A stretch of 64,000 bases of DNA from Methylobacter sp. S3L5C (GTDB lineage: Bacteria > Pseudomonadota > Gammaproteobacteria > Methylococcales > Methylomonadaceae). The notes under the pieces are model-generated. The model ran no database searches. It was not told the DNA's origin and worked only from the letters and a program-made list of their open reading frames with translations. Position 1 is the first letter of the stretch. Every line of letters begins with the position of its first letter. The stretch is taken from the NCBI RefSeq assembly GCF_022788635.1, contig NZ_CP076024.1:248001-312000 (forward strand), written 5' to 3'. Positions 32,052-51,025 of the stretch are shown here, one piece after another. The position numbers and the translations under genes are program-made.

Positions 32052-33077
32052 TTACAGATAAAGCTTTTTAAAATTAGTCGCCTGTTTTGAAAAATTATCA
32101 TTACTTTGTATCAAAGCATCTAGTTCGGCGGTTAGTAAGGCGTTGATTTTAAATTGACGTACAACATTTAAATCCTGTGATTTTTTTACCATACCAGCAG
32201 CTCCGTCGTCATAGCCTTGTAAAAAAAGACTTATTGATAAGCACAGGTATCCATAACTTTTTTTCTCGTCCAAAGTTGTTAACTCAACTCCCTTGCCGGG
32301 AGCAATTTCAAAATGCCAGGCATCTTCATTTTCCGCTTCGGCCATAAGGGCTTTATCTTCCAGCCACTCAATTGCTTGTTTTTGATAGCTTAACGCCTGA
32401 CTTAAATATTCAAGACGCCAGTAAATTTTGGCACTTTCAAGTGCGGATAGTGGGTATTGCTTATTTCTTGAGTATTCCCCAATGGCCTGGTCGTAATTTT
32501 TTTCTTTAAAGTAAATGGTACCCAGATTATTTCGATATTTGGCTGTTGGTGACAGGTTTATTGCTCGCAAAGATTCAACTTTGGCAGCTTCGTAATTCCC
32601 TAACTGGTCATAAAGTAAAGCCAAATTATAATAGGCATCAGACAGTCGCCAATTTTGTCTGATGGCAGCATTATAATGTTGCATGGCTTTATCTACCTGA
32701 TTATTGGCGACATAAAACTGCCCCAAAAATAAATTAACATGGGCATCGTTGGGGTCTTGTTGATAAAGAATATCGATGGTGTCTTTAAACTCTGGTTGGG
32801 CTAATGTTTGTCCAATCTTGGCTATTTTCAAGCTCCATGCGGCTTGCTTGTTTTGTGGATTATTTTTTAATTCAGCTTCAAAAATTCGTTGAGCATCGCG
32901 ATAACGACCTATATTTAAAGCATTATCACCTTCAACGATTAACTGTCTGGCAGACGTAGGTGCTTTGGCTATGTCATAGTGATTGGCTATCCAGCCACCG
33001 CCAATTAACATTGTGATTAAGGCAACGATAAGTCCCAGTTTCTTTATAAAATTCCAGCAATCAGCTAAAAAATTCAT
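32052..33077 (-). CDS. Membrane-anchored TPR protein
   Basis: 341 aa. One N-terminal TM helix (about 12-30, GLIVALITMLIGGGWIA) anchors a periplasmic region of tetratricopeptide repeats from about residue 45 to 225. Recognisable units include GDNALNIGRYRDAQRIFEAE, then AHVNLFLGQFYVANNQVDKA, and AYYNLALLYDQLGNYEAAK, each with the W/L-G-Y-A-P-like pattern. The C-terminal 110 residues have no clear repeat. It probably scaffolds a complex. It sits upstream of the sensor kinase on the same strand with a 161-bp gap, so a functional link is possible. Confidence 0.8.
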   Translation of the reverse strand: MNFLADCWNFIKKLGLIVALITMLIGGGWIANHYDIAKAPTSARQLIVEGDNALNIGRYRDAQRIFEAELKNNPQNKQAAWSLKIAKIGQTLAQPEFKDTIDILYQQDPNDAHVNLFLGQFYVANNQVDKAMQHYNAAIRQNWRLSDAYYNLALLYDQLGNYEAAKVESLRAINLSPTAKYRNNLGTIYFKEKNYDQAIGEYSRNKQYPLSALESAKIYWRLEYLSQALSYQKQAIEWLEDKALMAEAENEDAWHFEIAPGKGVELTTLDEKKSYGYLCLSISLFLQGYDDGAAGMVKKSQDLNVVRQFKINALLTAELDALIQSNDNFSKQATNFKKLYL

Positions 33078-33720: not shown

Positions 33721-34665
33721 CTAATGATGATGGTGCAAAACCGGCTTTGTTATCGTAAGAGAACAGGTATGATCAGTGCTGCCGAGTTCAATTTGTAGAG
33801 TACAGTGATGAACGGAATGCTGTTCTTCAAGTGTCCTTACACAATCATCAATAAAGGCATCGCCAGGGTGGCCGTTGGGCATGACCAGATGCACCGTTAG
33901 CGCATTTTCGGTGGTACTTAAACCCCAAATATGTAGATCATGAATGTCTGTTACCCCTTCCAATTGGTATAAGTAATCGTTTACTGCAGTTACATCAATA
34001 TTTGCCGGTACTGCATTCATGGCCAGTTTCACCGATTCACGAAACAAGCCCCAGGTACCAATCACGATAACGATTACGATAACCAAGCTAATAGCCGGAT
34101 CAAGCCAATACCATTCGGTGTAAAGCATAGCGATACCCGCAAGTACTACAGCGAGTGATACTGCTGTATCTGCCGCCATATGCAGGTAGGCACTGCGAAT
34201 GTTTAAGTCGCCTTTACTGCCTTTCATTAACAGTAACGCAGACAGGCCATTGACGACAATGCCAACGGCGGCCACTACGGATATGGTAAGTCCGGCTATA
34301 ACAGGGGGTTGTGAAAAGCGTTCAATAGCTTCCCAGGCAATGGCACCCGAGGCTACCAACAGCAACATCGCGTTGGCAAGTGCGGCCAGAATTGATGTAC
34401 TGCGCAGTCCATAGGTGAAGCGTTCGCTGGGTTTTTTACGCGTCAAAATAATAGCGCTCCAAGACAACAGCAGACCCAACACATCTGAGGTGTTGTGTCC
34501 TGCATCAGCTATGAGCGCAGTTGAATTAGTGAGAAATCCATAGCCAAATTCAACGGCAACAAACAGTAGATTTAGAACAACGGTGATCGCAAAAATCGGT
34601 CCATAGTTTTTGGGGACAGGGTGGTGATGTTTTTCAGAATGATTGTGGTTGTGATGATCGGCCAT
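33721..34665 (-). CDS. Cation diffusion facilitator family zinc/cobalt exporter
   Basis: Exports divalent metal by proton exchange. 314 aa with six TM helices; metal-site motif LIADAGHNTSDVLGL on TM2 (His and Asp) and HMAADTAVSL on TM5; cytoplasmic ferredoxin-like domain at about 215-300. The N-terminus is His-rich (DHHNHNHSEKHHHPVP) and the C-terminus ends HHHH, both probable metal buffers. It belongs to the CzcD/ZitB type, so Zn2+ is most likely. No metalloregulator gene is adjacent. Confidence 0.92.
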   Translation of the reverse strand: MADHHNHNHSEKHHHPVPKNYGPIFAITVVLNLLFVAVEFGYGFLTNSTALIADAGHNTSDVLGLLLSWSAIILTRKKPSERFTYGLRSTSILAALANAMLLLVASGAIAWEAIERFSQPPVIAGLTISVVAAVGIVVNGLSALLLMKGSKGDLNIRSAYLHMAADTAVSLAVVLAGIAMLYTEWYWLDPAISLVIVIVIVIGTWGLFRESVKLAMNAVPANIDVTAVNDYLYQLEGVTDIHDLHIWGLSTTENALTVHLVMPNGHPGDAFIDDCVRTLEEQHSVHHCTLQIELGSTDHTCSLTITKPVLHHHH

Positions 34666-35040: not shown

Positions 35041-35550
35041 TCAGTTATTAATCAAGCCCAGCAACCCTTTCAGTAATGCCAGAGGTGTAGGCGGGCAGCC
35101 GGCTATGGTCATATCGACAGGTATAACATTGGCTACTGCGCCGCAACTGGCGTAAGAAACGCCAAATTCACCACCGCAAGCGGCACAATCACCAACGGCA
35201 ATAACCCATTTTGGATTTGGTGTTGCTTCATAAGTTCGTAGCAATGCTGTTTGCATGTGCCGCGACACAGGACCGGTCACCAATAACACATCGGCATGCC
35301 TTGGCGAGGCGACAAAATGAATACCAAAACGCTCAATATCATAAAACGGATTATTAAGCGCATGGATTTCCAGTTCGCAACCATTACAGGAACCGGCGTC
35401 GACCGCTCTTATGGCAATGCTGCCGGAAAAACTTTTGTCAATGTGACGTTTAATTTGTATACCCAGCTGTTCCAGTTCATCGTCCTTGGGAGCTTTGTAC
35501 TTTTCAGTGACAACACCGGTTGTCAGGATTTTTTTAATAAGTTGCAGCAC
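35041..35550 (-). CDS. Hydrogenase-4-like small subunit (HyfI/NuoB type)
   Basis: Carries the N2-type [4Fe-4S] cluster. 169 aa from GTG 35550, which has a perfect AGGAGG 4 nt upstream; a longer frame from 35604 overlaps hyfG and lacks similarity. Ligands are all present: GSCNGCE, a Cys in GDCAACGG and AGCPPTP. It is the last gene of the six-gene block, after hyfG. The HyfH-type ferredoxin subunit, which would normally link clusters, is not encoded nearby. Confidence 0.88.
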   Translation of the reverse strand: MLQLIKKILTTGVVTEKYKAPKDDELEQLGIQIKRHIDKSFSGSIAIRAVDAGSCNGCELEIHALNNPFYDIERFGIHFVASPRHADVLLVTGPVSRHMQTALLRTYEATPNPKWVIAVGDCAACGGEFGVSYASCGAVANVIPVDMTIAGCPPTPLALLKGLLGLINN

Positions 35551-35558
35551 ACAGCCTC

Positions 35559-37199
35559 CTATAAATCGTTGCCTGAATAAGAGCCATTCAGGGATTTGTT
35601 GCAAACAGGAAAATCCGGCACAATATTATTGAGCACCAGTTTTTCTAAAGCAGGCCAGTTTAAGGTGCTGGGGTCGCGTGGATAAAAACGGGTGATTTTG
35701 TTATCGGTATCGAAACGAATATGAGTGACGATTTCTCCGCGCCAACCTTCAACGATTCCCAAGCCTTCACTGCCAGCTTTTGGTGGCTGCCATTCGGTGA
35801 GTATTTTACCCTCCGCAGGTTGTGCTATAACAAGTTGCGCTATAAATTGTTCAATAAGTTTTAACGAGGACAGAATTTCCTTGTATCTGACCCAGAATCT
35901 TGAGGCAATATCGCCTTGGTTTTCCACCGCAACTTTAAAAACGACTTGATCGTAAGGTGAATAGGGCGAATCTCTGCGGACATCAAAATTTTGCCCGCTG
36001 GCACGGCCAACATAACCCAGCGTACCAAAAGCGGCAGCGATTTCCGGTAACAGATAACCCGCCGTGTAAATCCTGTCTTCCAGGGATGAGTTAAGGTCTA
36101 CCGCAGGCATGATTTCTGACAGCTCAATTCTTAGTTGACTGATTTCCAGGGAAACCAAGGCACAGGAGTCTAACGATAAATCACTGATGACGCCGCCCGG
36201 AACAATTCTGTCCATTAACAAGCGGTGGCCAAAGACGGTTGCATTGGTGCGTAACCATAATTCACGCAAACGGGTGAATTGCATTTGGGCAAAAACAAAA
36301 GCGACATCATTACAAATCCCACCCATATCACCTAAATGATTGGCTATCCTTTCGCGCTCTGCCAAAATACCGCGTATTAAGGCGGCCCGTGGTGGGATTT
36401 GAATATCTGCAGCTTGCTCCATTGCCATGCAGGCTGCCCAGCAATGGCATACCGTGGTATCGCCAGAAACTCGACCGGCTAAACGAGCCAAAGACTCAGG
36501 TGTCCGGTCTTCTGCAATTTTTTCAATACCTTTATGGGTATAACCCAAGCGTTCTTCCAGATTTAATATCAGTTCACCTACGGCCTGAAAGCGAAAGTGT
36601 CCGGGTTCAATAATACCGGCATGAACGGGACCAACGGGAATTTCATATACCCCCGCACCGTAGGATTTAACAAAAGGATAATCCATATCGGGCGGGGTAA
36701 CAGCTTGTGGCTCGCCTTGAACAGGAAAGTCTTTGCGCAAGGGATAACTACCCTCAGCCCAAGCTTTATGTTGCGTCCAGCGTCGATTATCAGGATGGCC
36801 GATAAAGTTAATGCCAAACATGTCTTGAGTATGACGTTCACTGCGATTAGCGGCTGGATAAACGGTTGCTTGTGAGGGTAATTCAGGGCTCTCGTTATTG
36901 ACGTGGGTACGTAACAATAAATAAGTCCCTTCTTTTTCAAAGCAGGTATTGACGATAAATAGTGTCTCGGCATGTTCTGCCCAACCGGCTACCCAACGCA
37001 GGTTTTGTTCAATTGCGTGCTGACTGAACTGTTGCCAGTGCTTGCTTTCAATGTTCCACAGCACGGCATTATTGTTTTTGATATCTTCGTCTGGTTGTCC
37101 GGCAGTCGTTAAATGTCGATTCATCAGTGTCGGAACGATAAAAAATTCTGCGTTATTGAGTTGGTTTAAAAAATCTGTCGCCCAGTTTGATGAACTCAT
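35559..37199 (-). CDS. Hydrogenase-4-like large subunit (NuoC/D fusion) without NiFe ligands
   Basis: 546 aa from ATG 37199, overlapping the hyfF-like stop as ATGA. N-terminal NuoC-like part at 1-165 (ERHTQDMFGINFIGHPDNRR) and NuoD-like part from 175. True group-4 hydrogenases have a RxCGxCxxxH motif and a DPCxxC motif. Here they read RVSGDTTVCHCW (243-254) and, at the end, VPDFPVCNKS, so the CxxC pairs are lost. The protein therefore cannot bind a NiFe centre and probably acts as a quinone- or structure-bearing subunit (Ehr-type complex). Confidence 0.88.
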   Translation of the reverse strand: MSSSNWATDFLNQLNNAEFFIVPTLMNRHLTTAGQPDEDIKNNNAVLWNIESKHWQQFSQHAIEQNLRWVAGWAEHAETLFIVNTCFEKEGTYLLLRTHVNNESPELPSQATVYPAANRSERHTQDMFGINFIGHPDNRRWTQHKAWAEGSYPLRKDFPVQGEPQAVTPPDMDYPFVKSYGAGVYEIPVGPVHAGIIEPGHFRFQAVGELILNLEERLGYTHKGIEKIAEDRTPESLARLAGRVSGDTTVCHCWAACMAMEQAADIQIPPRAALIRGILAERERIANHLGDMGGICNDVAFVFAQMQFTRLRELWLRTNATVFGHRLLMDRIVPGGVISDLSLDSCALVSLEISQLRIELSEIMPAVDLNSSLEDRIYTAGYLLPEIAAAFGTLGYVGRASGQNFDVRRDSPYSPYDQVVFKVAVENQGDIASRFWVRYKEILSSLKLIEQFIAQLVIAQPAEGKILTEWQPPKAGSEGLGIVEGWRGEIVTHIRFDTDNKITRFYPRDPSTLNWPALEKLVLNNIVPDFPVCNKSLNGSYSGNDL

Positions 37200-38659
37200 A
37201 ACGGTGTACTCCCCGAGATTAACAAGGTTGCCTGTGAAAACCAGTTGGCCAGAAACTCCGGAATAGCCAGACCTAGCCACAATACCAAACCTAAATGAAT
37301 GATCACCGGCCATAAGTTGGCTTTAACGGGGTTTTGGTCTTCGGGTTTGTCACCATAAACCATGGGTTGTACATGTCTGAACAGTCCGGCAAAGGCGATG
37401 CCGATACCTAACAACAAGAATGGTGCCAGCCAGGGATAGCTATGCATGGTGGCCAGCAAAACCAGAAATTCACTGGTAAATACGCCAAAAGGCGGGAACC
37501 CGGCAATGGCCAGTGTGCCTATCAACAACCCCCAGCCTACGCGGGGTTGGGTTTTTATCAAGCCTCGTATTTTATCCATGCTTTGAGTGCCGGTAATTTG
37601 CGCAGCATGACCTACGGTGACAAAAATAGCCGATTTTGTCAGTGAATGTACAGTCATGTGTAGTAATGCGGCAAAAGTTGCCATGGGGCCGCCGACCCCA
37701 AAGGCAAAAGTCATCATCCCCATGTGTTCAATGGATGAATAGCTGAATAATCGTTTAATGTCTTTCTGGCGATGCAGAAACAAGGCGCCAACAAGAAAAG
37801 ACAATAAGCCAAAGCCCATCATTAAATAACCGGCCATGTTGTTATGGGTTGCACCATCCACCAGCATCTTGTTGCGTACAACGGCATATAAGGCGTCATT
37901 TAACAATAGGCCGGATAATACTGCCGACATGGGGGTAGGGCCTTCGGAATGGGCATCAGGTAACCAGTTATGTAAAGGAACCAGGCCGATTTTTGTACCA
38001 TAGCCAACCAGTAAAAAAACAAAGGCAATTTGAAGTATCTCCGGATTTAATTGCGTGGCATTTTCATAAAGTACTGACCACAGTAAGGCATTTTCACCAT
38101 CGCCGATCTGAACTGCCGCGTAATAAAGCAAAATGGTACCAAACAGGGCTTGCGCAATACCTACGCCACAAAGAATAAAGTATTTCCAGGCGGCCTCAAT
38201 AGATTCAGGAGTGCGGTATAAGCTGACCAATAGCACGGTCGCGAGGGTCGCACCTTCCATGGCTACCCACATAATACCCATGTTGTTGGTGGTTAATACC
38301 ATATACATGGCCAGCATAAAACCCTGATACATCGAGTAATAAAGCTTTAACCGGTTGTCAGTCAGCTTACCCAGTTCCTTTTCATGCGCCATATAAGATG
38401 ACGAAAAAATAGACGTGGTCAGTCCGACAAAAGCGGTTAGGGCAATCAAATAGACATTAAAAGGATCAATTAAAAAGGCCTTGTTGGGAGATAAAATAGT
38501 ACCTTGGTTAAGTACATTAATCGCCAGCCAGATAGATGCCAGCAAACAGATGCCGTTTAACCAGACATTGATTTTACCCATGTCCGTTTTATGACCAACA
38601 ATAGCAAAAAAAATAATTCCGACAAAAGGGATAAATAATACAAGATAAGCAGCGATCAT
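37196..38659 (-). CDS. Hydrogenase-4-like antiporter subunit (HyfF/NuoN-M type)
   Basis: 487-aa integral membrane protein with about 14 helices, a Mrp/NuoLMN antiporter-like module. Landmarks are the helix-5 Glu in MWVAMEGATLATVLLV, the helix-7 Lys in GYGTKIGLVPLHNWLPDAH, then SYSSIEHMGMM. These charged residues line the proton or sodium path. It overlaps hyfE upstream by 4 bp and hyfG downstream by 4 bp, so these are tightly coupled. Confidence 0.9.
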   Translation of the reverse strand: MIAAYLVLFIPFVGIIFFAIVGHKTDMGKINVWLNGICLLASIWLAINVLNQGTILSPNKAFLIDPFNVYLIALTAFVGLTTSIFSSSYMAHEKELGKLTDNRLKLYYSMYQGFMLAMYMVLTTNNMGIMWVAMEGATLATVLLVSLYRTPESIEAAWKYFILCGVGIAQALFGTILLYYAAVQIGDGENALLWSVLYENATQLNPEILQIAFVFLLVGYGTKIGLVPLHNWLPDAHSEGPTPMSAVLSGLLLNDALYAVVRNKMLVDGATHNNMAGYLMMGFGLLSFLVGALFLHRQKDIKRLFSYSSIEHMGMMTFAFGVGGPMATFAALLHMTVHSLTKSAIFVTVGHAAQITGTQSMDKIRGLIKTQPRVGWGLLIGTLAIAGFPPFGVFTSEFLVLLATMHSYPWLAPFLLLGIGIAFAGLFRHVQPMVYGDKPEDQNPVKANLWPVIIHLGLVLWLGLAIPEFLANWFSQATLLISGSTPL

Positions 38660-39333
38660 TTATCCACCTCGTTTAAGCGGTTTAACAAGTCGACATCCAG
38701 TGAGTCGATGCTGGTACGTATATGTAAGAAAAAAATACCGAACAGCACGGCTGCCACTAATACGTCAAATGCGACACCCAATTCGACTACCATCGGCATA
38801 CCTTTGGTAGCAACGATAGCGGCAAAAAACAACCCGTTTTCTATCGACATGAAGCCCACCACATGGGCAACTGCCTGACGATGGGAAATCATTAGCAGCA
38901 TACCCAACAATACTACTGAAAGGCTGACTGCCAGTGCATTGAGCATGACCGGTGAGGTAGTTGGTACGATAGGATGTAAAATATAATAACTAAATACCAT
39001 CAAGCTTGCTCCGCCCAGCATTACCATGGTCTTGTTTTTTAATGCCTGAATACTTCGTTGTGCATTCATGTGCATAACTTCGCGTCTTAACATCCACGGG
39101 ATAAAAATAACTTTTAGCAGCAAGGTTAGTGCAGCAGAAATATACAAGTGATGACTGTCCAAACTATAGCCCGCCAACACGGTGGTGATGGTTAACAGAA
39201 AGCCTTGTAACGCAAAGACAAAAATCAGCCGCAGCAACCTGCTTTGCCCCAGCATGAGAAAAGAGGTGAGTCCTACCAATGCCGCCATTGATAAAATGGC
39301 TTGTGTATAAAAATCGGTTTGTTCAATATGCAT
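38656..39333 (-). CDS. Hydrogenase-4-like membrane subunit HyfE
   Basis: 225 aa, six to seven TM helices; the second half resembles NuoK with conserved Glu residues in MSIENGLFFAAI and nearby VVELGVAFDVLVAAVLFG. Matches HyfE (about 216 aa in E. coli). Overlaps its neighbours by 1-4 bp on both sides, consistent with one operon. Confidence 0.88.
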   Translation of the reverse strand: MHIEQTDFYTQAILSMAALVGLTSFLMLGQSRLLRLIFVFALQGFLLTITTVLAGYSLDSHHLYISAALTLLLKVIFIPWMLRREVMHMNAQRSIQALKNKTMVMLGGASLMVFSYYILHPIVPTTSPVMLNALAVSLSVVLLGMLLMISHRQAVAHVVGFMSIENGLFFAAIVATKGMPMVVELGVAFDVLVAAVLFGIFFLHIRTSIDSLDVDLLNRLNEVDK

Positions 39334-40277
39334 TAGCGTGCAGCCTCCAAAATGATGTGACTCAACATACCCAGCAAGCCTAATAAGTAGGCAAAGCTAA
39401 GATATTCCTGGACTCGAAATAAGCGCATTTTGGCAAATAAAGTCTCGGCTATCGCCAGAACTATCGCTAACAAAGCGAGCTTGCCTGTAATTGCCAGTAA
39501 GCCGTAGCCTAATGCTTCAGCACTAAAGGTTTCGGCGATGCCCCACGGAAAAAAGATATTGGCAATCAATACGCCATAAAGCATTAGTTTAAGCTGACTG
39601 GCCCATTCAATTAGCGCCAGATGCCGGCCACTGTATTCAAGAATCATGGCTTCATGAATCATGGTCAATTCCAGATGCGTAGCCGGATTATCAACAGGAA
39701 TGCGTCCGGTTTCAGCGATGGCAACCAAAAGCAGGGCAGGCAGAGCAAACACAAAGGAAGGTCTTAGCACCATACCTTCGTTGATGACATGTGCAATGGC
39801 ACCGGATAAATTTGTTGTGGAAGCGGTCATGGTCAGCGTAAAAACTGCCATCAACATGGCGGGTTCTGCCAACGAAGAGATGGTCATTTCCCTGGACGAC
39901 CCCATGCCACCAAATGCAGTCCCCATATCCAGTCCCGCCAAGGCCAGGAAAAACCGGGCAAAGGCAAAAAAACCTACCATGACGATCACGTCAGCGCTGG
40001 CCGAAGTAGGTAGATCAACAGCGATTAATGGTACTACCGTTGCCGCCAGAACGGTGGCGGAGAAGACAATGTAAGGTGTGGCTATAAATAGCCAAGACGC
40101 CTGTTTTGAAACTACCGGTTGTTTATGCGTTAATTTGAGCAAATCCCGATAAGGCTGTAATAAAGAGGGCGCTTTGCGATTTTGCAAATGACATTTGCAC
40201 CACTTCAGCCAACCGGCCAATAACGGCGCCATGGCGACAAATAACGCGGTTTGTAAAATGGCGATTAACCAATTCAT
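39333..40277 (-). CDS. Hydrogenase-4-like membrane subunit HyfC (NuoH type)
   Basis: 314 aa with about 8 TM helices, equivalent to NuoH/HycD. Landmarks are APLLAGWLKWCKCHLQNR near 18-35 (normally RKxxARLQxRxGP) and ETGRIPVDNPATHLELTMIHE near 190-210, the charged loop thought to join quinone chemistry to ion transfer. Spacing to hyfB is 58 bp. Part of the same operon. Confidence 0.9.
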   Translation of the reverse strand: MNWLIAILQTALFVAMAPLLAGWLKWCKCHLQNRKAPSLLQPYRDLLKLTHKQPVVSKQASWLFIATPYIVFSATVLAATVVPLIAVDLPTSASADVIVMVGFFAFARFFLALAGLDMGTAFGGMGSSREMTISSLAEPAMLMAVFTLTMTASTTNLSGAIAHVINEGMVLRPSFVFALPALLLVAIAETGRIPVDNPATHLELTMIHEAMILEYSGRHLALIEWASQLKLMLYGVLIANIFFPWGIAETFSAEALGYGLLAITGKLALLAIVLAIAETLFAKMRLFRVQEYLSFAYLLGLLGMLSHIILEAAR

Positions 40278-40335
40278 TGTATTTCTCCAAACAGTAGAGA
40301 GGTTTGGGCTGTAGAGTATGCTGTATTTATACGCA

Positions 40336-42462
40336 TTAGCTAATTACCCATAACAGAAGCAGTAACGTTGCAAACGAATAACTCAGGTAGGTTCGTATAT
40401 TGCCGGTTTGAATACGTCCAACCTGCTTGGCCAGTTTATTGACTCCTCGTGCTATCGGGTGGTAAAAAAGCGGCCAGCTATGATCTTCAATCTGCAGTTT
40501 GTAATGGACTGCTGCAACATCCAGATTCATGGCGCCTTGCATGTCTTTGTTAATTTGTTCGTCGACAAGCCAGACTCTGGCAAAGATTCGCCGTAAAGGC
40601 ATAGTAAAGGCACTGGAGGTATATTGCATGCGAGGTGTTAACCCACCAAAGCCACAATCCCAGGTTTCAGCCTTGCGTATTACTGTTAAAGGATTGCGCC
40701 GTAAATACCAATAACAGATGCCGGCGGCAATGAGCGCTCCTATTAGTACCAGTGGCGCAGAATAGGATGCTTGCTCGGGAGAAACCGGAGCCAGCCACAA
40801 CCAATCCAAAGCAGAATCATTCGGTAAGGTTTGTCCCAACAGTTGACCTGAAACAGTATTAATTAGCTGAATGATCACGTTCGGGAAAATCCCGATAAAA
40901 AAGCACAAACCGGCCAATAAAGCAGGACCTGCCAACATGCCTTTATAGGGTGTTTCATGGGCATTTTCACTGTTTTCTGATCGTGATTGGCCCAGAAATA
41001 TCAGCCCAAACACTTTGACAAAACAAGCGGCTGCCAAAGCTGATGTCAGCGCCAAGGCAGCCGCTGCAACAGGAATTAAACTGCGCAAGACGCCATTTTC
41101 CAGGACATCAACCTGTAATGCAGTTTGAAAAGCCAGCCATTCGGAAACAAAGCCGTTAAACAAAGGTAACGAAGAAATACTCATGCAGCCGACCAAAAAC
41201 AACAAACTGGTTTGCGGCATTTTTTTAATCAGGCCACCCATCATATCGATATTTAATTCATGGGTCTGGTGTTGAATGATACCCGCCCCCAAGAATAGTA
41301 AATTTTTGAACAAGGCATGATTGAAGGCATGCAGTAAAGCGGCCAGAAAACCTAATGCCGCTAGTTGCGAATGACCATTTGCCATAAAAATCATGGCCAA
41401 GCCCAATACCATAAAAATAATACCGATATTTTCAACTGAACTGTAAGCCAACAGGCGTTTTAAATTGGGTTGCATCATGGCATAGAGGATGCCGCCCAGC
41501 GCTGAAAGAGTTCCCAGAGCCAGCAACGCTACGCCCCATTCCCAGTGAATATCACCGAGTAAATCAAAAATAAAACGGATCAAACCATACAGTGCCACTT
41601 TAAGCATTACGCCGCTCATTAAGGCTGAAATATGTGAAGGTGCTGCCGGGTGCGCTTCCGGTAACCAAATATGCACAGGAACTATGCCGGCTTTCATGCC
41701 AAAACCCAATAGCGCCAATACGAAAGCAATACTTGCCCACGTTACTGACAATTTGGATTCCCGTAAGGCATCAAAAGTAAAGCCGTCAGAAAAACTGGCC
41801 AGTACGCCAAAGCCTAAAATAATCGACAACGCGCCAACCTCAGCCATCAATAAGTATAGAAACGCGGCGCGGCGATTGGCAGGATTTTCATGTTGAAAGG
41901 CCACCAGAAAATAGCTTGCTACCGACATTAGCTCCCAAGCAATCATAAACATAAAAGCATCATCGGCTAACAGCACCAACAACATCCCGGCAACAAACAA
42001 ACCGGTAAACAAACCCAGAACGGCAAAAGGGTGCTCTTTTTCTTTATAGCTACTGACATAACCGGGTCCGTAGAGACTCACTGCACAGACGGCAATGCCT
42101 ATAATCAAAAAAAAGAAACCGGATAAGGCATCAAAACGGACATGCCACGGCAGCCAGGGTAAGCCTAAAGCAATCAGGTCGGTAATAACTCCGTTACTGA
42201 TCAGCACCGCTAAACCGGCTATGACGGCAAACAGACCTGAAAAACCCAATAAAACAAAGACTGCTTGTCTTAAAAAAGCCGGGTAATGCTGTTCTTCAAG
42301 ACTTTTATTAACCCAATCCCGACACTTTACATTACCGTTAAAGAATTTGTTAACACTGTACTGGCTTATTGCCAACAGGATTTGTCGCTGATTCATCATC
42401 AGTGCCAACAAACCGGAAGCAAAGCTTAAAAGTACCGCACAATACGCTGATAAAAGGATCAT
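40336..42462 (-). CDS. Hydrogenase-4-like antiporter subunit HyfB (NuoL type)
   Basis: First gene of the block: 708 aa, 16 or more helices, NuoL/MrpA-like core. The Glu in MIAWELMSVASYFLV and Lys in GFGMKAGIVPVHIWLPEAH mark the ion channel; SYSSVENIGIIF is also typical. The C-terminal 60 residues carry TWDCGFGGLTPRMQYTSSAF, characteristic of HyfB/HycC and giving the soluble tail. Together with hyfC, E and F it makes a two-pump membrane arm. Confidence 0.92.
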   Translation of the reverse strand: MILLSAYCAVLLSFASGLLALMMNQRQILLAISQYSVNKFFNGNVKCRDWVNKSLEEQHYPAFLRQAVFVLLGFSGLFAVIAGLAVLISNGVITDLIALGLPWLPWHVRFDALSGFFFLIIGIAVCAVSLYGPGYVSSYKEKEHPFAVLGLFTGLFVAGMLLVLLADDAFMFMIAWELMSVASYFLVAFQHENPANRRAAFLYLLMAEVGALSIILGFGVLASFSDGFTFDALRESKLSVTWASIAFVLALLGFGMKAGIVPVHIWLPEAHPAAPSHISALMSGVMLKVALYGLIRFIFDLLGDIHWEWGVALLALGTLSALGGILYAMMQPNLKRLLAYSSVENIGIIFMVLGLAMIFMANGHSQLAALGFLAALLHAFNHALFKNLLFLGAGIIQHQTHELNIDMMGGLIKKMPQTSLLFLVGCMSISSLPLFNGFVSEWLAFQTALQVDVLENGVLRSLIPVAAAALALTSALAAACFVKVFGLIFLGQSRSENSENAHETPYKGMLAGPALLAGLCFFIGIFPNVIIQLINTVSGQLLGQTLPNDSALDWLWLAPVSPEQASYSAPLVLIGALIAAGICYWYLRRNPLTVIRKAETWDCGFGGLTPRMQYTSSAFTMPLRRIFARVWLVDEQINKDMQGAMNLDVAAVHYKLQIEDHSWPLFYHPIARGVNKLAKQVGRIQTGNIRTYLSYSFATLLLLLWVIS

Positions 42463-42566
42463 GAAATTCTCACTGTCTGAAATTTAAAACTATTTGGGGC
42501 GAAATATAAGGATGTAAGGTTAAAGATTGGTTTTTAGGCCTCCATTTATAATCTTGCACCTAAATC

Positions 42567-44159
42567 TTATTTCCTGTCATCTGCCGTCATGATTCGTGCA
42601 GCCAGAGCATGATTTGAAAAGGTTTCCAAAGCATTGCCTACTTGCTTGCAGCATCCGCCCTGCGCTTCATAGCTTTGTTGGAAATGATTAATAAACCCCA
42701 TAACAGTATGATCAATCAGATAACCGTTGGTAAAATCGAAAATAAGTGTCTTACCGGGTTCGAGCTTGGCAAGTGCCTTTTTTAACGGTAAGAAATTTGA
42801 AAACAGGGCAGAACCCAATAATGTGATAACTAGCGTATCGTTATTTTGTTGTTGAATGGTAAAGTTAATCTTGAACAGATTGCCAAGCCAAACACCTCGT
42901 ACGACATCAAGACCAAGCTTTGTAACAATACCCAAGGCGACACCGATTAACAAATCAGTCGTCAGTACCCCGATAATGGTAATAACAAATAAAAATAACT
43001 GATCTTTACCTACATCCCTTACGCTGGCGAATGTTTTCGGCGAGGCTAAACGATAACCGGTATAAACCAGTAATGCGGCTAATGAAGCCATGGGAATACT
43101 CTGGATAAGGCCGACAAACAAGACGACAAAGAGTAATAACAACAGGCTATGAAAAAAATTGGCCCAAGTGGTTTTTGCCCCGTTATGGACATTCTCCGAG
43201 CTACGTATGATTTCAGCTATCATCGGTAAGCCACCCATTAAACCGGCGACCAGATTGCCAATTCCAATTGCTGTTAAATCACGATCAAGATCGGAAGAAC
43301 GCTTATATGGATCCAGCTTGTCAACCGCTGTCGCAACCAGTAAGCTCTCAAGACTACCGATTAAACTGATACTCAGAACGGCCCCCCAAAAAGCTGGGGT
43401 GGTAATTTTTGAAAAATCAGGAAAATAAAAGCTTTCCAGAAAATTATCGGGAATGTCGACCAGGTAGTTTGAGCCGTTAATAGTTGTAAATTTAAAATCA
43501 AAATGCCAGGCGAATACAATACCTACCAGCACGACGATAACCGGAGCAGGAATCCTGACTCCGACTAACGGCCAAATGATCAGGATGAGCAAGCTTAAAA
43601 AACTAATGAGCACACAGTCCATATTGGTAATAGCCAAACTATGCGGAATTTGTGCAATGATTGAGAACAAATTGCCTGCTTCCGGTGTGACTCCCAGCAT
43701 AACGTGGGTTTGTGTAGCGATAATAATAATGCCAATCGCAGCGAGCATGCCATGAACGACCGACGTGGGGAAAAAGGAACTTAGTTGCCCCAGTTTGTAT
43801 ATGCCCATTACAATCTGCAAAACACTGGCAATAACAATTGCCGCCAGCGTGTAACGATAACCGGCAAGCGCATCGCCTTCACCCAGTATTTGCACTGCCG
43901 CCAAAACTACTACGATCAAGCCGGCAGCTGGTCCATTAATAGTCAGGTAAGAACCGCCAATACGCGAGACTAAAAGCCCTCCTATTATTGCGGTAATAAT
44001 CCCTGCCGATGGTGGGACCCCTGAAGCCACTGATACACCAAGACACAGTGGTAAAGCGATAAGAAAAACCAGGAATCCTGACAGTAAATCACTGCGCCAG
44101 TTTTCTTTTAAGCCTGCCAGTCCAGTTTGGGGGATAGCTGAAAGGGATGCTTTATGCAT
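42567..44159 (-). CDS. SulP family anion transporter, copy 1
   Basis: 530 aa: 12-14 helices of SulP permease, then a STAS domain from about 435. The N-terminal block WRSDLLSGFLVFLIALPLCL and GGSYLTINGPAAGLIVVVL are conserved. Substrate may be bicarbonate or sulfate; bicarbonate is plausible from the hyf-like block immediately downstream (104 bp, same strand). Shares very high similarity with the copy at 46265, so a tandem duplication later split by an IS. The STAS core LIFDFTNGYLIDHTVMGFI lacks the usual phosphorylatable Ser. Confidence 0.9.
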   Translation of the reverse strand: MHKASLSAIPQTGLAGLKENWRSDLLSGFLVFLIALPLCLGVSVASGVPPSAGIITAIIGGLLVSRIGGSYLTINGPAAGLIVVVLAAVQILGEGDALAGYRYTLAAIVIASVLQIVMGIYKLGQLSSFFPTSVVHGMLAAIGIIIIATQTHVMLGVTPEAGNLFSIIAQIPHSLAITNMDCVLISFLSLLILIIWPLVGVRIPAPVIVVLVGIVFAWHFDFKFTTINGSNYLVDIPDNFLESFYFPDFSKITTPAFWGAVLSISLIGSLESLLVATAVDKLDPYKRSSDLDRDLTAIGIGNLVAGLMGGLPMIAEIIRSSENVHNGAKTTWANFFHSLLLLLFVVLFVGLIQSIPMASLAALLVYTGYRLASPKTFASVRDVGKDQLFLFVITIIGVLTTDLLIGVALGIVTKLGLDVVRGVWLGNLFKINFTIQQQNNDTLVITLLGSALFSNFLPLKKALAKLEPGKTLIFDFTNGYLIDHTVMGFINHFQQSYEAQGGCCKQVGNALETFSNHALAARIMTADDRK

Positions 44160-44357
44160 AAAAATCCTTGTTTATTGTAATATTGTAGGTTTGTAAATGG
44201 TTATTAAGCGCCTACTATACCACTTTAGCCTTGACAGCGACTTCGATTAATGTTTGAAATAAATTCATGAGCTATGTCAGGCTCTCCCGGCAAGTCGCTA
44301 CTATGCTGATTCAATCGCCATTTGACTGACAGTGCAGTAGCTTGAAAATGGTATTTA

Positions 44358-46261
44358 GTGCCTGAACGAAAAAGCCACTTTTCAAAAAAACCAGCTCAAC
44401 ATCCGGAAATATTTTTTGGAAAAATCTTTCCGGAGTGGAACAAACGACTTATTTTCTGATTTACCATCAGTTTTTCAGAATTATTTCTAATAATCACAAA
44501 TTATAAGCGCACCTTTCCTGTGGATAACCTGTTGGCTGTTCTCAAAAAAGCGTCAGGCAGCTAGTTTTTGTTGCTCGTTAACAAGCCTTAGCCGTTCCAT
44601 GTCGCGTTTAATTGTGCCGAGCTTTTGAATGTTACGCGATAACACGGCTAAGCCAACATAACGCTCGAAGGCTTCAATGCCATGATCAAGGCACTTATCC
44701 AGCCCATGTACTTCTAACGCATTAATAGCCGATTCTACGGCGGAATGTTGCTTTTTTGCCTGTTTAAATTCCGCGGTGTATTCACGATTCTGGTCGGCTT
44801 TGGATAGCTTGCCTTTTTTGGGTAAAACGACTTGCTCAAGGAGGGCTTTCAGGTCGGTTTGATTGGCCGGACTGTGGAAACCTTTGTCAAAGCTACAGGC
44901 GTTAAAACTTGGGAATTTTACTTGAGTCGCTTTAACCATCGGCACGGCGACTTTGTCGTCGGTAGTCTTTTGCATGACTTGACTGTGCAATATAAAGCCC
45001 TGATGGTCTTCCATGATACAGACCCGCAAGCCCAGTTCAACCGGGACTCCGGCTTTGCCTTTGCTGATCCATTCGGTGTGGGTCTGGAACAGGGAAAAGA
45101 CTTTTTCATCATGGGGAATGGTTTCTCCTTGAATAGCGCGACGTCTAATCTGCTCGATTTGACGTTCGGCATGCAGGCTAAAAGTGCTCAGATCGGTAAG
45201 CAACACTTCTGGTATGTGAAAGTGATTTTTTAACGTCAACATACTGGCTTTAGTGCGCTCAAGATAAAACCCTGCCAAATCAATATAGTCCTGGTAGGCC
45301 TGTTTGATCTCAAGTGCTTTGGCGGCCTTGATAGCGTCATTTTTTGACGTGGAATGTTTGAGTTTTTGCAGCGTGCGATACCGCCTTTTAAATTTAGACA
45401 GGTTGTGCTTATGCAATCGCCATTCAGGCAAGGCATGTTGCAAGCTCCATTTGACGCACGTCCGAATCAGAATCCGGATCGCATCATGCAGTAAACTGAT
45501 ATCGGTTGGAAAATGCACGTTGGTTTTTAACACAAAAGAATCGCAACGGCCTCTGATCAGCGCATGAATATCCAGATCCAGTAATTGATAGCCGGCTCGA
45601 ATAACTTCAGTACTAATACGCGCCATGATCGCTGGCGTAAACAGCTTGAGATTGTCTTTCAAGGTTTGCAGGCGATAGCGTTTGTCGGCATCAAAGCAAC
45701 CAAGACCGAGCATTTCACGTAGGGTGTTATGCTGATTGGCCAACTCCAGAATGCGATCATAGTCTGTATTCAGTCCTACGCGTAGCGATCCTAACACCAA
45801 AATCGACCATTGATTCATACCGGGGCGGCCTTTGTCGATGGCAACGATTTTTGTCACTTCGGCGTCAATTTTAGTAGGCACCACATCCTCCAGTATTTTA
45901 AAAACAGCATCCCTTAATGGCTGAGTCGTATAAATGTGTTGCAAGCCCAGCAAGATGATCGGAATGTCATCACGGGAGGAAACATCTATTTTGATATCAG
46001 CAATATCGCGTTGACCGATGCTCATTTGTGGAGAAAATACCTTTCTCATCGGGAGTTTTCCAACGAGAATTTGAAAGCTGAGGCGCTTATCCGGGAGGTA
46101 GCTTTTGCCAAGCCCTTTTCGATGAAAATAATAATCATAATTATCAGCAAGTTACTTAAATTCAGCATTTTATACGCCAATAGGCTGTTATTTGATTTTC
46201 AATAGCCTATTTTATCGCAACTTATTGTTTTGTATTAAATAATTTATTACCGTTCAAACAC
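44358..46261 (-). mobile_element. ISNCY-like insertion sequence between two sulP genes
   Basis: 1904 bp. Inverted ends GTGCCTGAACGA and, at the right, CGTTCAAACAC. The target duplication TATTTA flanks it at 44352-44357 and 46262-46267. The right duplication contains the stop codon of the second sulP gene. A partial relative is at 51026-51949. Confidence 0.88.
44553..46049 (-). CDS. ISNCY-family-like transposase
   Basis: 498 aa, apparently intact. N-terminal region with IVAIDKGRPGMNQWSILVLG, and later CSFDKGFHSPANQTDLKALL, where a catalytic Asp would fall, then a helical end. A DDE-type fold with the ISNCY (ISDol1-like) pattern is the best guess. The related copy at 51026 is truncated after about 184 residues by an IS4-type element. 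Confidence 0.8.
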   Translation of the reverse strand: MRKVFSPQMSIGQRDIADIKIDVSSRDDIPIILLGLQHIYTTQPLRDAVFKILEDVVPTKIDAEVTKIVAIDKGRPGMNQWSILVLGSLRVGLNTDYDRILELANQHNTLREMLGLGCFDADKRYRLQTLKDNLKLFTPAIMARISTEVIRAGYQLLDLDIHALIRGRCDSFVLKTNVHFPTDISLLHDAIRILIRTCVKWSLQHALPEWRLHKHNLSKFKRRYRTLQKLKHSTSKNDAIKAAKALEIKQAYQDYIDLAGFYLERTKASMLTLKNHFHIPEVLLTDLSTFSLHAERQIEQIRRRAIQGETIPHDEKVFSLFQTHTEWISKGKAGVPVELGLRVCIMEDHQGFILHSQVMQKTTDDKVAVPMVKATQVKFPSFNACSFDKGFHSPANQTDLKALLEQVVLPKKGKLSKADQNREYTAEFKQAKKQHSAVESAINALEVHGLDKCLDHGIEAFERYVGLAVLSRNIQKLGTIKRDMERLRLVNEQQKLAA

Positions 46262-46264
46262 TAT

Positions 46265-47950
46265 TTACACCCCGTAATGATCACTTTTACGGCGACTCAT
46301 ATTATCTCGCCTCATTCTGCGCACTGCCAAAGGATGCTCTGAAAAAGTTTCGTGCTGTTCCATTCCCAGAAATACACATTTACCACTTTGGCCTTCATAG
46401 CTATGCTGAAAGTCATAAATAAATTCCATCACGGTATGATCAACCAGATAAGTATTGTTCATTTGGAAAATGATGGTTTTACCTTTTTCCAGATTGGCTA
46501 AAGCGGTCTTCAATGACATAAAGTTAGAGAAAATCGCCGCGCCGACTATGCTGACAATAACAGTGTCGGTATCTTTCTGCTCAATAACAAAGTGGATCTT
46601 AAACAGGTTATTTAACCTAACGCCACGCACCAAATGGATAGTAAATTCGGTCAGGATGCCGATAGCAACGCCGATTAATAAATCAGTTGCCAACACACCG
46701 ATAATCGTCACCACAAACATAAATAACTGTTCTTTACCAACGCTCATAACTTTAGCGAATTCTTTGGGCGAGGCCAAACGAAAGCCGGTATAGACCAACA
46801 ATGCCGCCAGTGCAGCTAGAGGAATGCTATGAATCAGTCGTGGAAACAGCACTACGAACAATAACAGTAATGTGCCGTGAAAAAAATTGGCCCACTGGGT
46901 TTTTGCACCGTTATTCACGTTAGCCGAACTACGCACGATCTCTGCAATCATTGGCAGGCCACCGACTAATCCGGCCAACAGATTACCTGCACCGACGGCT
47001 GTCAAGTCACGATCAAGATTGGAATGGCGTTTATACGGATCAAGTTTGTCCACCGCCATGGCGCTAAGTAAGCTTTCCAGGCTTCCGACCAGGCTGATAC
47101 TGATAACGGCTTCCCAAAACTCCAGGGTGGAAAATTTTGAAAAATCGGGAAAATAAAAGCTGGACATAAAATTTTCAGATATCGCGACCAAAAATTTAGG
47201 GCCGACAGTTTCTTCGTGATGTGGTAAAAAATGTGCATCCGGTAAAAATAAATACATGTGCTCATGTTCCAGATCAAAATACCGTGCCAAACCCATTCCA
47301 GCCAACACGACAATCAATGGTGCCGGAATCATCTTTAAGGTGGGGTTTTTTATCACCGACCAAATAATCAATATGATTAGTCCGGTTAGGCCAATAATGG
47401 CAATTTCATGATTAAGATTAACAATACTGTGTGGAATCTGTGCGATGGTTGAAAACAGACTGCTGCCTTTCTCCGGCGTAGTGCCGAGCATAACATGGAC
47501 CTGTTTGGCCATGATAATGATGCCGATAGCCGCCAACATGCCATGTATTACTGATGCCGGAAAAAAAGAGCTCAGTCGTCCGGCTTTAAATACGCCCATC
47601 AAAACTTGTATGGCGCTGGCAACGACAATGGCCGCCAAAGTATAGCGATAACCAGCCATCGCATCGCCTACACCCAGTTCTTGCACAGCACTAAGTACTA
47701 CTACAATCAAGCCGGCGGCGGGTCCGTTAATAGTGATAAATGAGCCGCTGATTCTTGAAACCAGTATTCCGCCAATAATGGCAGTGATAATACCAGCCGA
47801 GGGTGGGAAACCGGAAGCCATGGATATACCCAAGCATAGCGGTAAAGCGATGAGAAAGACCAGAAATCCTGATAGTAAATCGTTACGCCAGTTTTCTTTT
47901 AACCCGGCCAGGCCGGTTTTGGGTAATGCCGGTAGTGAAGCTTCACTCAT
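46265..47950 (-). CDS. SulP family anion transporter, copy 2
   Basis: 561 aa, same architecture as the copy at 42567: SulP permease then STAS (about 435-535). N-terminal WRNDLLSGFLVFLIALPLCL and SGSFITINGPAAGLIVVVL. Has an extra loop near 245-265 rich in His (EHEHMYLFLPDAHFLPHHEE), absent in the other copy, which may bind metal or tune transport. Upstream of copy 1 on the same strand; the IS between them probably cuts any shared transcript. Its stop lies in the IS target duplication. Confidence 0.9.
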   Translation of the reverse strand: MSEASLPALPKTGLAGLKENWRNDLLSGFLVFLIALPLCLGISMASGFPPSAGIITAIIGGILVSRISGSFITINGPAAGLIVVVLSAVQELGVGDAMAGYRYTLAAIVVASAIQVLMGVFKAGRLSSFFPASVIHGMLAAIGIIIMAKQVHVMLGTTPEKGSSLFSTIAQIPHSIVNLNHEIAIIGLTGLIILIIWSVIKNPTLKMIPAPLIVVLAGMGLARYFDLEHEHMYLFLPDAHFLPHHEETVGPKFLVAISENFMSSFYFPDFSKFSTLEFWEAVISISLVGSLESLLSAMAVDKLDPYKRHSNLDRDLTAVGAGNLLAGLVGGLPMIAEIVRSSANVNNGAKTQWANFFHGTLLLLFVVLFPRLIHSIPLAALAALLVYTGFRLASPKEFAKVMSVGKEQLFMFVVTIIGVLATDLLIGVAIGILTEFTIHLVRGVRLNNLFKIHFVIEQKDTDTVIVSIVGAAIFSNFMSLKTALANLEKGKTIIFQMNNTYLVDHTVMEFIYDFQHSYEGQSGKCVFLGMEQHETFSEHPLAVRRMRRDNMSRRKSDHYGV

Positions 47951-48180
47951 ACAAATCCTCGTTTTTGATAATAGTGTTTTTAATTTGATATAAGCGATTA
48001 TTGTGCCAACTAGTTGTTAGTGTTGTAACACATTAATTTTGTGTATGTATTAGCTTATATTCACAATCAAATAGTGGTGATAAACGATGGAGATGGGTGC
48101 AAAAAAACCTGATAGTGGTTTATTTGCACCATAGTTGATGAAGGTTATCTGTTCGATTGTGTAATTTATACAAAATGTAT

Positions 48181-49505: not shown

Positions 49506-51025
49506 TAATACTGCTACCGCAAATATAAAAAACAAAGTCAGAGGCTTAAACATGCCTCGTTTCTTGGCACCATCAGCAAAGGAAAGGGTTTTGATCGGCG
49601 TTTGACTGCCCTTGGCTGGCTCTTACGTTTTTGTTTTCCAATGGCCGTTGATGCCATCGCTTTTAATAATTCACGCAAGGCGCTTATGAGTTGGTTCCCT
49701 GTCAAGCCTACCATCTGCTTGGCGGCTTGAATGACCAGTTGCACTGCTGACCTGAAACTCAGTTGGCGGGGTATCTTCTCATGCAGGCTGGCTACCTGTG
49801 CCAAATTGCCACGAATGATGTTGTATGCCAATAAGTGGATAGCTATCTCCTTGCTTACCATGTCAGGTTTTTTGCACCGTAATATTTCCATGCCCATATT
49901 GGTTTTGATGGAACGAAAATCCAGCTCAATTTTCCAGCGCTGTTTATAAAGCATAGCCAGCTCTTGCTTATGAAAGCCCTTTGCATTCAGTAAGGTGGTC
50001 AAATAGATTCTGCCGTTTACCGCAAACTCTCGGACGGTAATCGATTCCGGCAAGTCGCTATAGTCCTGCTTGGACATCCACACCGGTTTCCGTTTGGGTT
50101 TCGTCCAGTCAATCAAATGATCTCTTGCACCCAGGTAGACACCCAAGCTGAAATCTACTTTTTTCCGGGCATGTAGTGGAAATAGCACAGGAATTTCACG
50201 AGCCTGCAAGAGCGCAATAATGGCGAAGGTACAGTAATAGCGGTCCGCCATCAGCAAGTCGCCAACTGACAGGCTGCCAAACAGTTGACTGAGTAACGAT
50301 GTTTCGCCAGTTCCTTTGCCTTGATAGGCTCCCAGGCTATAGTCGAGCACGGTTCCTGCAGCCAAAGAAATCAACACAACCATGCGAGCAATCGGAAAGC
50401 CCAAGCCAGGCTTTTGACTATCCAGCTGAGGAAAGTCTGCCTGATTCTCTGGTGTATCTGGCATTTGCACCGTTGCTCCATCAGTAAGGACAACGTTATA
50501 ACCCTTCCATCGCCACGCGGCCAGAGACTGGTTATGAAGACGCAAACCAGCAGCTGTGGTGGCTGCTCTGAGTTCCTTTAGTGGTAAGCGTTGTCGGGCT
50601 TTACAGTAAGGTCCCGTGTTAACCGTATTGGCTGATTGTCCATCGACGATACGATCAATCAATACGCCTGCCACTGCCTGTTTACAGGAACCGTCATCAC
50701 TTAATACTTGGAAAATGAAAGCTTTAAGCGTGACTAAGGGCAAGAACACCGAGGAGCGTTTATGCGGGGTATTGGCGATAATGTTGGTAATGCTGTCGGC
50801 TGAAAAAAATCCTCAACACCTCTAGTCCTTGGGATTGCAAAAATGACTTTTTGAAGCGGTCAATTTGCTGCTGAATACAGTTTTTTTTAATAGCTGGCAT
50901 GGTTAAGTTATTGATCAGACTCTGTAATACCCAAAATTCTACCAGAATAGTGCTTGATCTTTATCTTATTATTTGCGTATCTAACTGTAACTTATAGATT
51001 AATTATATTTGCGGTAGCAGTATTA
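49506..51025 (-). mobile_element. IS4-type insertion sequence, copy 2
   Basis: About 1520 bp, ends TAATACTGCTACCGCAAAT inverted. It differs from copy 1 by a few substitutions and two small indels. It interrupts an ISNCY-like relative: the right flank starts ATATCGGTTGG, continuing the transposase of that element. No target duplication; the left flank is unrelated. Confidence 0.9.
49538..50900 (-). pseudogene. IS4-type transposase, main frame intact but N-terminus out of frame
   Basis: From a GTG at 50749 the frame gives 403 aa: VVLTDGATVQMPD and SVGDLLMADRYYCTF hold the first two Asp, and YKQRWKIELDFRSIK gives the Y-x2-R-x3-E-x6-K signature. Upstream, ATG 50900 starts MPAIKKNCIQQQ in another frame that stops just after the T7 run near 50805. 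Joining both parts would give about 440 aa, the usual IS4 length. So it may be frameshifted, start internally, or use slippage. Confidence 0.7.

Follow-up and report, generated by a model that had tools for sequence, protein, structure and literature searches.

The subject of this report is a 64,000-nucleotide stretch of the genome of Methylobacter sp. S3L5C (contig NZ_CP076024.1, positions 248,001 to 312,000), referred to below as the window, and within it a block of six genes that resembles hydrogenase-4 and lies directly downstream of two SulP transporter genes. The large subunit of this complex carries no NiFe ligands, and its gene neighbourhood in Methylococcales points, tentatively, to a role in collecting inorganic carbon. 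The host genome (G000) consists of one contig of 4.8 Mb, and the closest named relatives of the large subunit belong to Methylobacter and other Methylococcales, which makes the host a presumed type I methanotroph.

Read along the minus strand from 47950 to 35041, the order is SulP2 (46265-47950), an insertion (44358-46261), SulP1 (42567-44159), and then the genes for a HyfB-like antiporter subunit (40336-42462), a NuoH/HyfC-like subunit (39333-40277, PF00146), a HyfE-like membrane subunit (38656-39333), a HyfF-like antiporter subunit (37196-38659), a NuoCD/HyfG-like large subunit without NiFe ligands (35559-37199, in an open reading frame (ORF) reaching 37313) and a NuoB/HyfI-like small subunit with the cluster motif CNGC...C...GCPP (35041-35604); overlaps join the last five block genes, from the HyfC-like to the HyfI-like one. 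A reading of this DNA from sequence only had described the six genes and the two SulP genes upstream on the same strand, and this arrangement was confirmed throughout. Both antiporter-like subunits that it listed score above the family cut-offs (HyfB-like, NF005086, 812.9 bits against 667; HyfF-like, NF005045, 783.2 bits against 543), while the HyfE-like subunit matches NF008556 at 82.5 bits, under the cut-off of 136. The large subunit was identified by alignments and an AlphaFold2 model; its probable start is M39, at 37199, which yields the residue numbering 243-248 of the sequence-only reading. The SulP proteins (530 aa for SulP1, 561 aa for SulP2) match PF00916, and neither has a STAS match at E 0.001.

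As that reading had also stated, no HyfH, formate dehydrogenase or maturation gene was seen by Pfam among the main ORFs of 27381-50749. No ORF for a HyfA/HyfH Fe-S relay lies in 35041-42462, a partner search of the rest of the genome not having been made, and the window has no Rfam match at gathering thresholds. The complete six-gene set recurs at 178 of 206 loci, a count in which 8 loci are true hydrogenases, several contigs are truncated and some loci repeat one contig.

The lost metal site and the descent of the complex

The large subunit was aligned over its residues 131-583 with HycE of the solved formate hydrogenlyase, and also within a 209-row alignment whose rows were not made non-redundant. 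In both, the four NiFe cysteines are replaced by S283, T286, S578 and G581 (ORF numbering, used also for D285 below). All four cysteines are present in only 10 of the 209 rows, namely E. coli HycE and HyfG, six HycE-like rows (L182-L187) and two Methylococcales rows (L242, L243); rows outside the true hydrogenases keep at most one. The loss of both cysteine pairs had been noted from sequence, with the C-terminal site placed at 'VPDFPVCNKS'; the loss stands but the placement does not, as the C-terminal pair really aligns with 'NGSYSGND' at the extreme end of the protein. An NKS motif close to the C-terminus is found in the hydrogenases L242 and L243 too, and the NKS part is therefore older than the NiFe loss. 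D285 is present in 197/209 rows, where HycE has isoleucine, and in the former NiFe pocket, as judged by alignment only, a polar motif of another kind, itself strongly conserved, has taken the place of the metal site.

Since the large subunit stops three residues past the last of the four cysteine positions, there is no maturation peptide: the C-terminal extension for the maturation protease is not present, and the end falls where the peptide of HycE would start. That the complex still works on H2, through a metal site of an unusual kind, would suit the Hyf-type composition and the fold (the AlphaFold2 model, pLDDT 88.6, has HycE as its nearest fold, TM 0.91), but the cysteine counts and the missing peptide make this scarcely credible, and the earlier claim that the complex does not carry out H2 chemistry is upheld.

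In the small subunit, the cysteines that bind the cluster (C73, C76, C140 and C170) are kept in 190, 190, 190 and 189 of 190 homologues, in agreement with the sequence-only reading, and the charged residues of the antiporter subunits are conserved, their role being, we assume, that of their counterparts in complex I. With these residues and the cluster kept and no visible entry for electrons, the complex could be either a redox pump with an unlinked partner or a non-redox, ion-driven device.

A quick tree of 110 rows, in which long branches are flagged, places 90 NiFe-less rows in one clade (SH-aLRT 99). Its sister is formed by three Methylococcales hydrogenases with intact motifs (L242, L243 and L319, from genomes G149, G117 and G131), whose group-4 large subunits carry RICGVC and CYSCTDR and are of true NiFe type. 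HycE/HyfG and NuoD fall outside both, and the 10 Nuo rows group separately on the other side (SH-aLRT 100). The idea that the large subunit stands apart from true hydrogenases thus holds in part: it branches on the group-4 hydrogenase side and not in the NuoD clade, yet as a separate NiFe-less clade. On this topology the loss of the NiFe site was probably a single event, in a hydrogenase that already had the six-gene layout, which L242 and L243 share. L319 had been considered as a member of the NiFe-less group and was rejected on its motifs.

On these sequence features the block is classed as an Ehr-type complex, i.e. group-4-related, without CxxC motifs and with Mrp/complex-I antiporter subunits, the tree being one without named EhrL sequences. 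Ehr proteins are described, in the excerpts of the literature from which all papers are cited here, as relatives of group-4 hydrogenases that lack NiFe-binding motifs (PMC10284858) and that are suspected of redox-coupled charge translocation via Mrp-like subunits (PMC6349859); NiFe cysteines are also missing in members from the Candidate Phyla Radiation (PMC7304191). The block shares the group-4 relation and the antiporter-like subunits with published Ehr, and differs in having six subunits and no electron-input gene that was found; its link in Methylococcales to SulP, DabAB and sigma-54-like boxes is not mentioned in the excerpts of the Ehr papers. Compared with E. coli hydrogenase-4 and formate hydrogenlyase, counterparts of HyfB, C, E, F, G and I are present, whereas HyfA, D, H and J are missing from the block. 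Complex I (NDH-1) is further removed, the block lying outside the NuoD clade and having no NuoEFG or NuoI in it or among the main neighbouring ORFs.

Among 397 genomes drawn evenly from Pseudomonadota, 62 match the large subunit at E 1e-60, and 6 of these matches are true HycE. At E 0.001 the host genome contains just one other match to it, which is 33% identical and falls within a separate NiFe hydrogenase. An ordinary NiFe hydrogenase of the host, with small and large subunit, lies far from the window (L320:8107-11181).

SulP, DabAB and promoter-like boxes in Methylococcales

Named Methylococcales contigs partly duplicate other genomes in the set, and neighbourhoods were counted in a subset of 60 loci (the window, L128 and 58 others) that excludes the true hydrogenases L242 and L243; 53 of these are complete with 1.5 kb upstream, and come from slightly fewer genomes, a few of which carry two copies. 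A SulP gene lies within 3 kb of the operon or inside it at 35 of the 53, window included, where chance predicts 0.2, or 0.7 at the SulP density of the host; related loci are not independent, and the probabilities quoted here are therefore too small. The SulP is upstream on the same strand at 30 of the 35, between hyfF and the large-subunit gene at 3, and upstream on the opposite strand at 2.

The block-adjacent SulPs of Methylococcales, SulP2 among them, form one clade with a SulP from another class of the phylum, L170 (SH-aLRT 99). Its sister group (97) includes three other SulPs of the host, one of which is fused with a beta-carbonic anhydrase domain in a single 760-aa frame (L005 / G000:C1 4183092-4185230). 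The best PDB match of the SulP is 6ki1 (E 6e-24), which we take to be BicA, and against the BicA model NF050096 the two SulP genes score 139 and 128 bits, the cut-off being 880. SulP bicarbonate transporters and operons of carbonic anhydrase with SulP have been described (PMC11423575, PMC6458275, PMC10880623), and Methylococcus capsulatus has such an operon (PMC11423575).

A second link leads to DabAB. One Methylococcales block has no SulP beside it and is followed on the same strand, 381 bp downstream, by DabA and then DabB (L203, genome G057), and in three genomes a SulP1-like gene, outside the set of the tree, stands directly 5' of DabA (L353, L357, L358; 53-63% identical over the available part). 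The host carries three DabA genes elsewhere; none of the block ORFs matches PF10070 (DabA), and the ten PF00361 matches of the genome are the two antiporter subunits of the block and loci beside the three DabA genes. The block and DAB have a NuoL-like membrane partner in common besides their association in genomes and promoter boxes, and differ in that the block of the window includes no DabA and has other cytoplasmic subunits. DAB2 has been described as a CO2-hydrating complex driven by protonmotive force, and cyanobacterial NDH-1MS is a complex-I-type machine for CO2 uptake (both PMC13144422); unlike in NDH-1MS, the large subunit of the block is on the hydrogenase side and is not NuoD.

These links also bear on a sulfur-based reading, in which the complex would reduce or oxidise sulfur compounds in the manner of archaeal MBS and the SulP would carry sulfate or sulfite. 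The large subunit matches that of 6u8y, which we take to be the NiFe-less, group-4-related MBS, at E 6e-18, one orphan SulP adjoins a TauE/SafE-type sulfite exporter, and several carriers of the block are named as sulfur bacteria. Sequence similarity to MBS/Mbx is low, however, and the block showed no counterpart of the additional Fe-S subunit that MBS has on its ferredoxin side. The genomic ties to DabAB, and to SulPs whose sister group includes the SulP-carbonic anhydrase frame, further argue against this reading, which we consider quite improbable.

A sigma-54 (-24/-12) promoter-like box, TGGCACAATAATCGCT, lies on the minus strand at 47993-48008, 42 bp 5' of SulP2. Matches to the consensus are no commoner in the window than expected by chance (16 against 11.9), and therefore only comparative counts were used. 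Such a box precedes the first SulP at 22 of 33 Methylococcales loci, as against 241 of 7440 random windows of such loci (strict count at a threshold of 12.4; with rounding it is 28/36, the strict count losing three rows whose score equals the threshold and omitting three named contigs). HyfB is preceded by a box at 16/23 loci where SulP does not lead the operon and at 0/31 where it does (windows of 360 bp for HyfB, 310 bp for the Methylococcales controls), and DabA at 21 of 29 loci (4.9% of controls), one further locus, L338, having been dropped for too short a flank. Within the host, two of the three DabA genes have the box (as copies 94% identical to each other, they do not count as independent cases) and it is missing from all eight other SulPs. 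The picture in Methylococcales suggests a single sigma-54 regulon that comprises the block, SulPs of this type and DabAB.

A candidate for its control is encoded at 29021-31890, downstream of the block and likewise on the minus strand: a sensor histidine kinase whose kinase half is AtoS/ZraS-like (30439-31890) and a sigma-54-dependent response regulator of the AtoC/NtrC kind (29021-30490). Where the block is absent or elsewhere, the pair is found directly beside SulP (L326, L327), and it is probably through this pair, acting on the sigma-54-like boxes, that the regulon would be controlled.

The insertion in the window, missed by the sequence-only reading in its otherwise correct account of the SulP pair, is 1904 bp long, encodes an ISNCY-type transposase on the minus strand (44553-46049, NF033593) and is not present in the relative G034, whose large subunit is 97% identical; the matches on its two sides overlap by 6 bp, suggesting that the target was duplicated. 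The insertion splits SulP2 and the box from SulP1 and the block, and may uncouple the operon in Methylobacter sp. S3L5C. Transposase-like genes are also found on both sides of the region (27381-28679 and 49538-50749).

Besides SulP, the recurrent Methylococcales neighbours are the two-component pair and a DUF2490 protein, the latter near the block or SulP at 22/67 loci (e.g. L054:12274-13035). A CDF cation efflux transporter (33721-34665, minus strand, in the window) adjoins the SulP/block module at 7/67, as well as the SulP pair of the block-less genome G015. A TPR-repeat protein is encoded at 32052-33077, also on the minus strand.

Blocks in other lineages

Outside Methylococcales 96 complete blocks were available, 51 in a named set that was selected by query similarity and includes plasmid loci, and 45 in an even draw of the phylum. 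SulP adjoins six in the former and one in the latter, with about 0.2 expected in each; the background counts include a few SulP genes split in two, and leave out a fragmentary SulP match close to L149, which at 90.7 bits fell under the cut-off of 100. For the named set the excess is significant (0.19 expected), and the six SulPs concerned fall outside the Methylococcales clade, elsewhere in the SulP tree. The block of an Accumulibacter (L085) is followed, in the same orientation, by a NuoM-like gene, DabA and two further genes of antiporter-like type.

The link between block and SulP, which the sequence-only reading had proposed to look for in other genomes, is borne out within Methylococcales, but most relatives elsewhere go against it, 89 of the 96 blocks standing without SulP. 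The latter number is what would be expected of a general device for pH or Na+/K+ homeostasis, similar to Mrp, with a link to SulP that came about in Methylococcales and has no bearing on the core function; the conserved charged residues of the antiporter subunits and the CDF transporter close by would also fit. Against this, linkage to DabAB extends beyond Methylococcales (L085) and SulPs of other subfamilies adjoin the block at the six named loci, and we regard the homeostasis explanation as unlikely.

A stronger competitor is a redox-driven ion pump that receives electrons from an unlinked donor (soluble ferredoxin, a formate dehydrogenase or a flavoprotein), passes them to quinone or another acceptor, and has in SulP either a user of its gradient or a regulatory neighbour. 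The proximal cluster cysteines are conserved, the modelled large subunit is predicted to fold like HycE and NuoCD, and for other Ehr complexes a partnership with formate dehydrogenase or, in the case of Mbx, with ferredoxin has been proposed (PMC6349859). At 130 loci outside Methylococcales, a pyridine-nucleotide flavoprotein is found within 5 kb at 7 and an FAD/fumarate-reductase-type protein at 6; in L137 and L147 the gene for the former lies 13-21 bp beyond the end of the block, in the same orientation, and its product is a possible redox partner in that genus. A flavin oxidoreductase also follows the true-hydrogenase block L242, which has an NfeD-type protein upstream. Set against these points are the absence of a NuoI/HyfH/HyfA-type subunit from the block of the window and the nature of the neighbours that recur in Methylococcales, i.e. 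SulP, DUF2490 and the two-component pair. A redox pump of this kind is accordingly a serious alternative, if a somewhat unlikely one.

Several other features of these loci were recorded. L111 and L105 carry six-gene-like blocks or parts of them, two in tandem on one contig, and three loci of one family (f54; L133, L143, L145) have an extra HyfB-like gene and a helix-turn-helix (HTH)-cupin regulator directly upstream of the block. A gene of 512-530 aa upstream of the block in L102, L107, L120 and L148 was considered as a SulP and rejected, there being no Pfam match in L102 and L120; from its sequence it looks like a periplasmic transglutaminase-like protein. A gene pair in L063 that resembled DabAB by size proved to be iPGM and a PEP-utilising enzyme.

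A possible module for inorganic-carbon acquisition

The reading that we tentatively favour, and to which we give close to an even chance, is that in Methylococcales the block is a module of a sigma-54-controlled regulon for the acquisition of inorganic carbon (bicarbonate/CO2), together with SulP and sometimes DabAB. The SulP1/SulP2 type would carry bicarbonate, and the Ehr-type complex would move H+ or Na+ and so energise or balance bicarbonate accumulation. MpsAB, which is related to DAB, supports the growth of a non-autotroph at atmospheric CO2 (PMC6689103), and this would in part explain why an organism without a RuBisCO match needs carbon uptake.

A number of observations weigh against this reading. 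The host genome has no match to RuBisCO, and the orphan SulP beside TauE/SafE is a reminder that SulP substrates vary. Even within Methylococcales, 18 of the 53 complete loci have no SulP nearby. A close SulP1 homologue was found in 111 of 151 relatives, 64 with the block and 47 without it; 5 have the block without such a SulP and 35 have neither (Fisher p 7e-7; presence at E 1e-60 and 1e-90, with the true hydrogenases of G131 and G149 and a fragment in G121 excluded from the block list). The 47 relatives rule out an obligatory tie between SulP and block. The boxes are consensus matches in related genomes, that is, putative promoters, and outside Methylococcales they precede HyfB at 3/103 loci, which is no excess over the 4.0% of the 360-bp controls from those lineages. 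Relatives of the kinase are present at 14/67 and of the regulator at 22/67 Methylococcales loci, in flanks of about 6 kb or less. Across the 130 loci of other lineages the most frequent neighbours within 5 kb are a spermidine-synthase-like gene (18 loci, among them L102, L107, L120, L123, L083 and L084) and HTH regulators (15 and 12), and SulP, with 7, is no commoner than the flavoproteins counted above. Lastly, as the block shows no electron-input subunit, the earlier proposal that the complex is powered by reduced carriers is left unsupported, and its proposed tie to bicarbonate or other anion uptake is favoured in Methylococcales by SulP, DabAB and the shared box, with most blocks elsewhere speaking against it.

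A bolder version of the carbon reading holds that the complex needs no electron input at all and is a third energy-coupled (vectorial) carbon pump beside NDH-1MS and DAB, in which the old NiFe pocket with Asp285 would serve as a site for CO2/bicarbonate or for proton coupling, driven by ion flow through HyfB and HyfF; we offer this as a speculation that is rather improbable as it stands.

While the kind of complex is already known as Ehr, its proposed assignment to a carbon regulon is new; among the papers that the literature searches listed, none connects a block of hydrogenase-like genes to SulP or DAB. Ehr-type complexes are common, and their function is called unknown in one paper (PMC10284858) and is only suspected to be that of a redox-driven ion pump in another (PMC6349859); the SulP/DabAB regulon provides a concrete and testable assignment. 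The Methylococcales hosts are methanotrophs, which are relevant to greenhouse gas cycling. If the assignment is true, a relative of complex I would join the known bacterial routes for collecting inorganic carbon.

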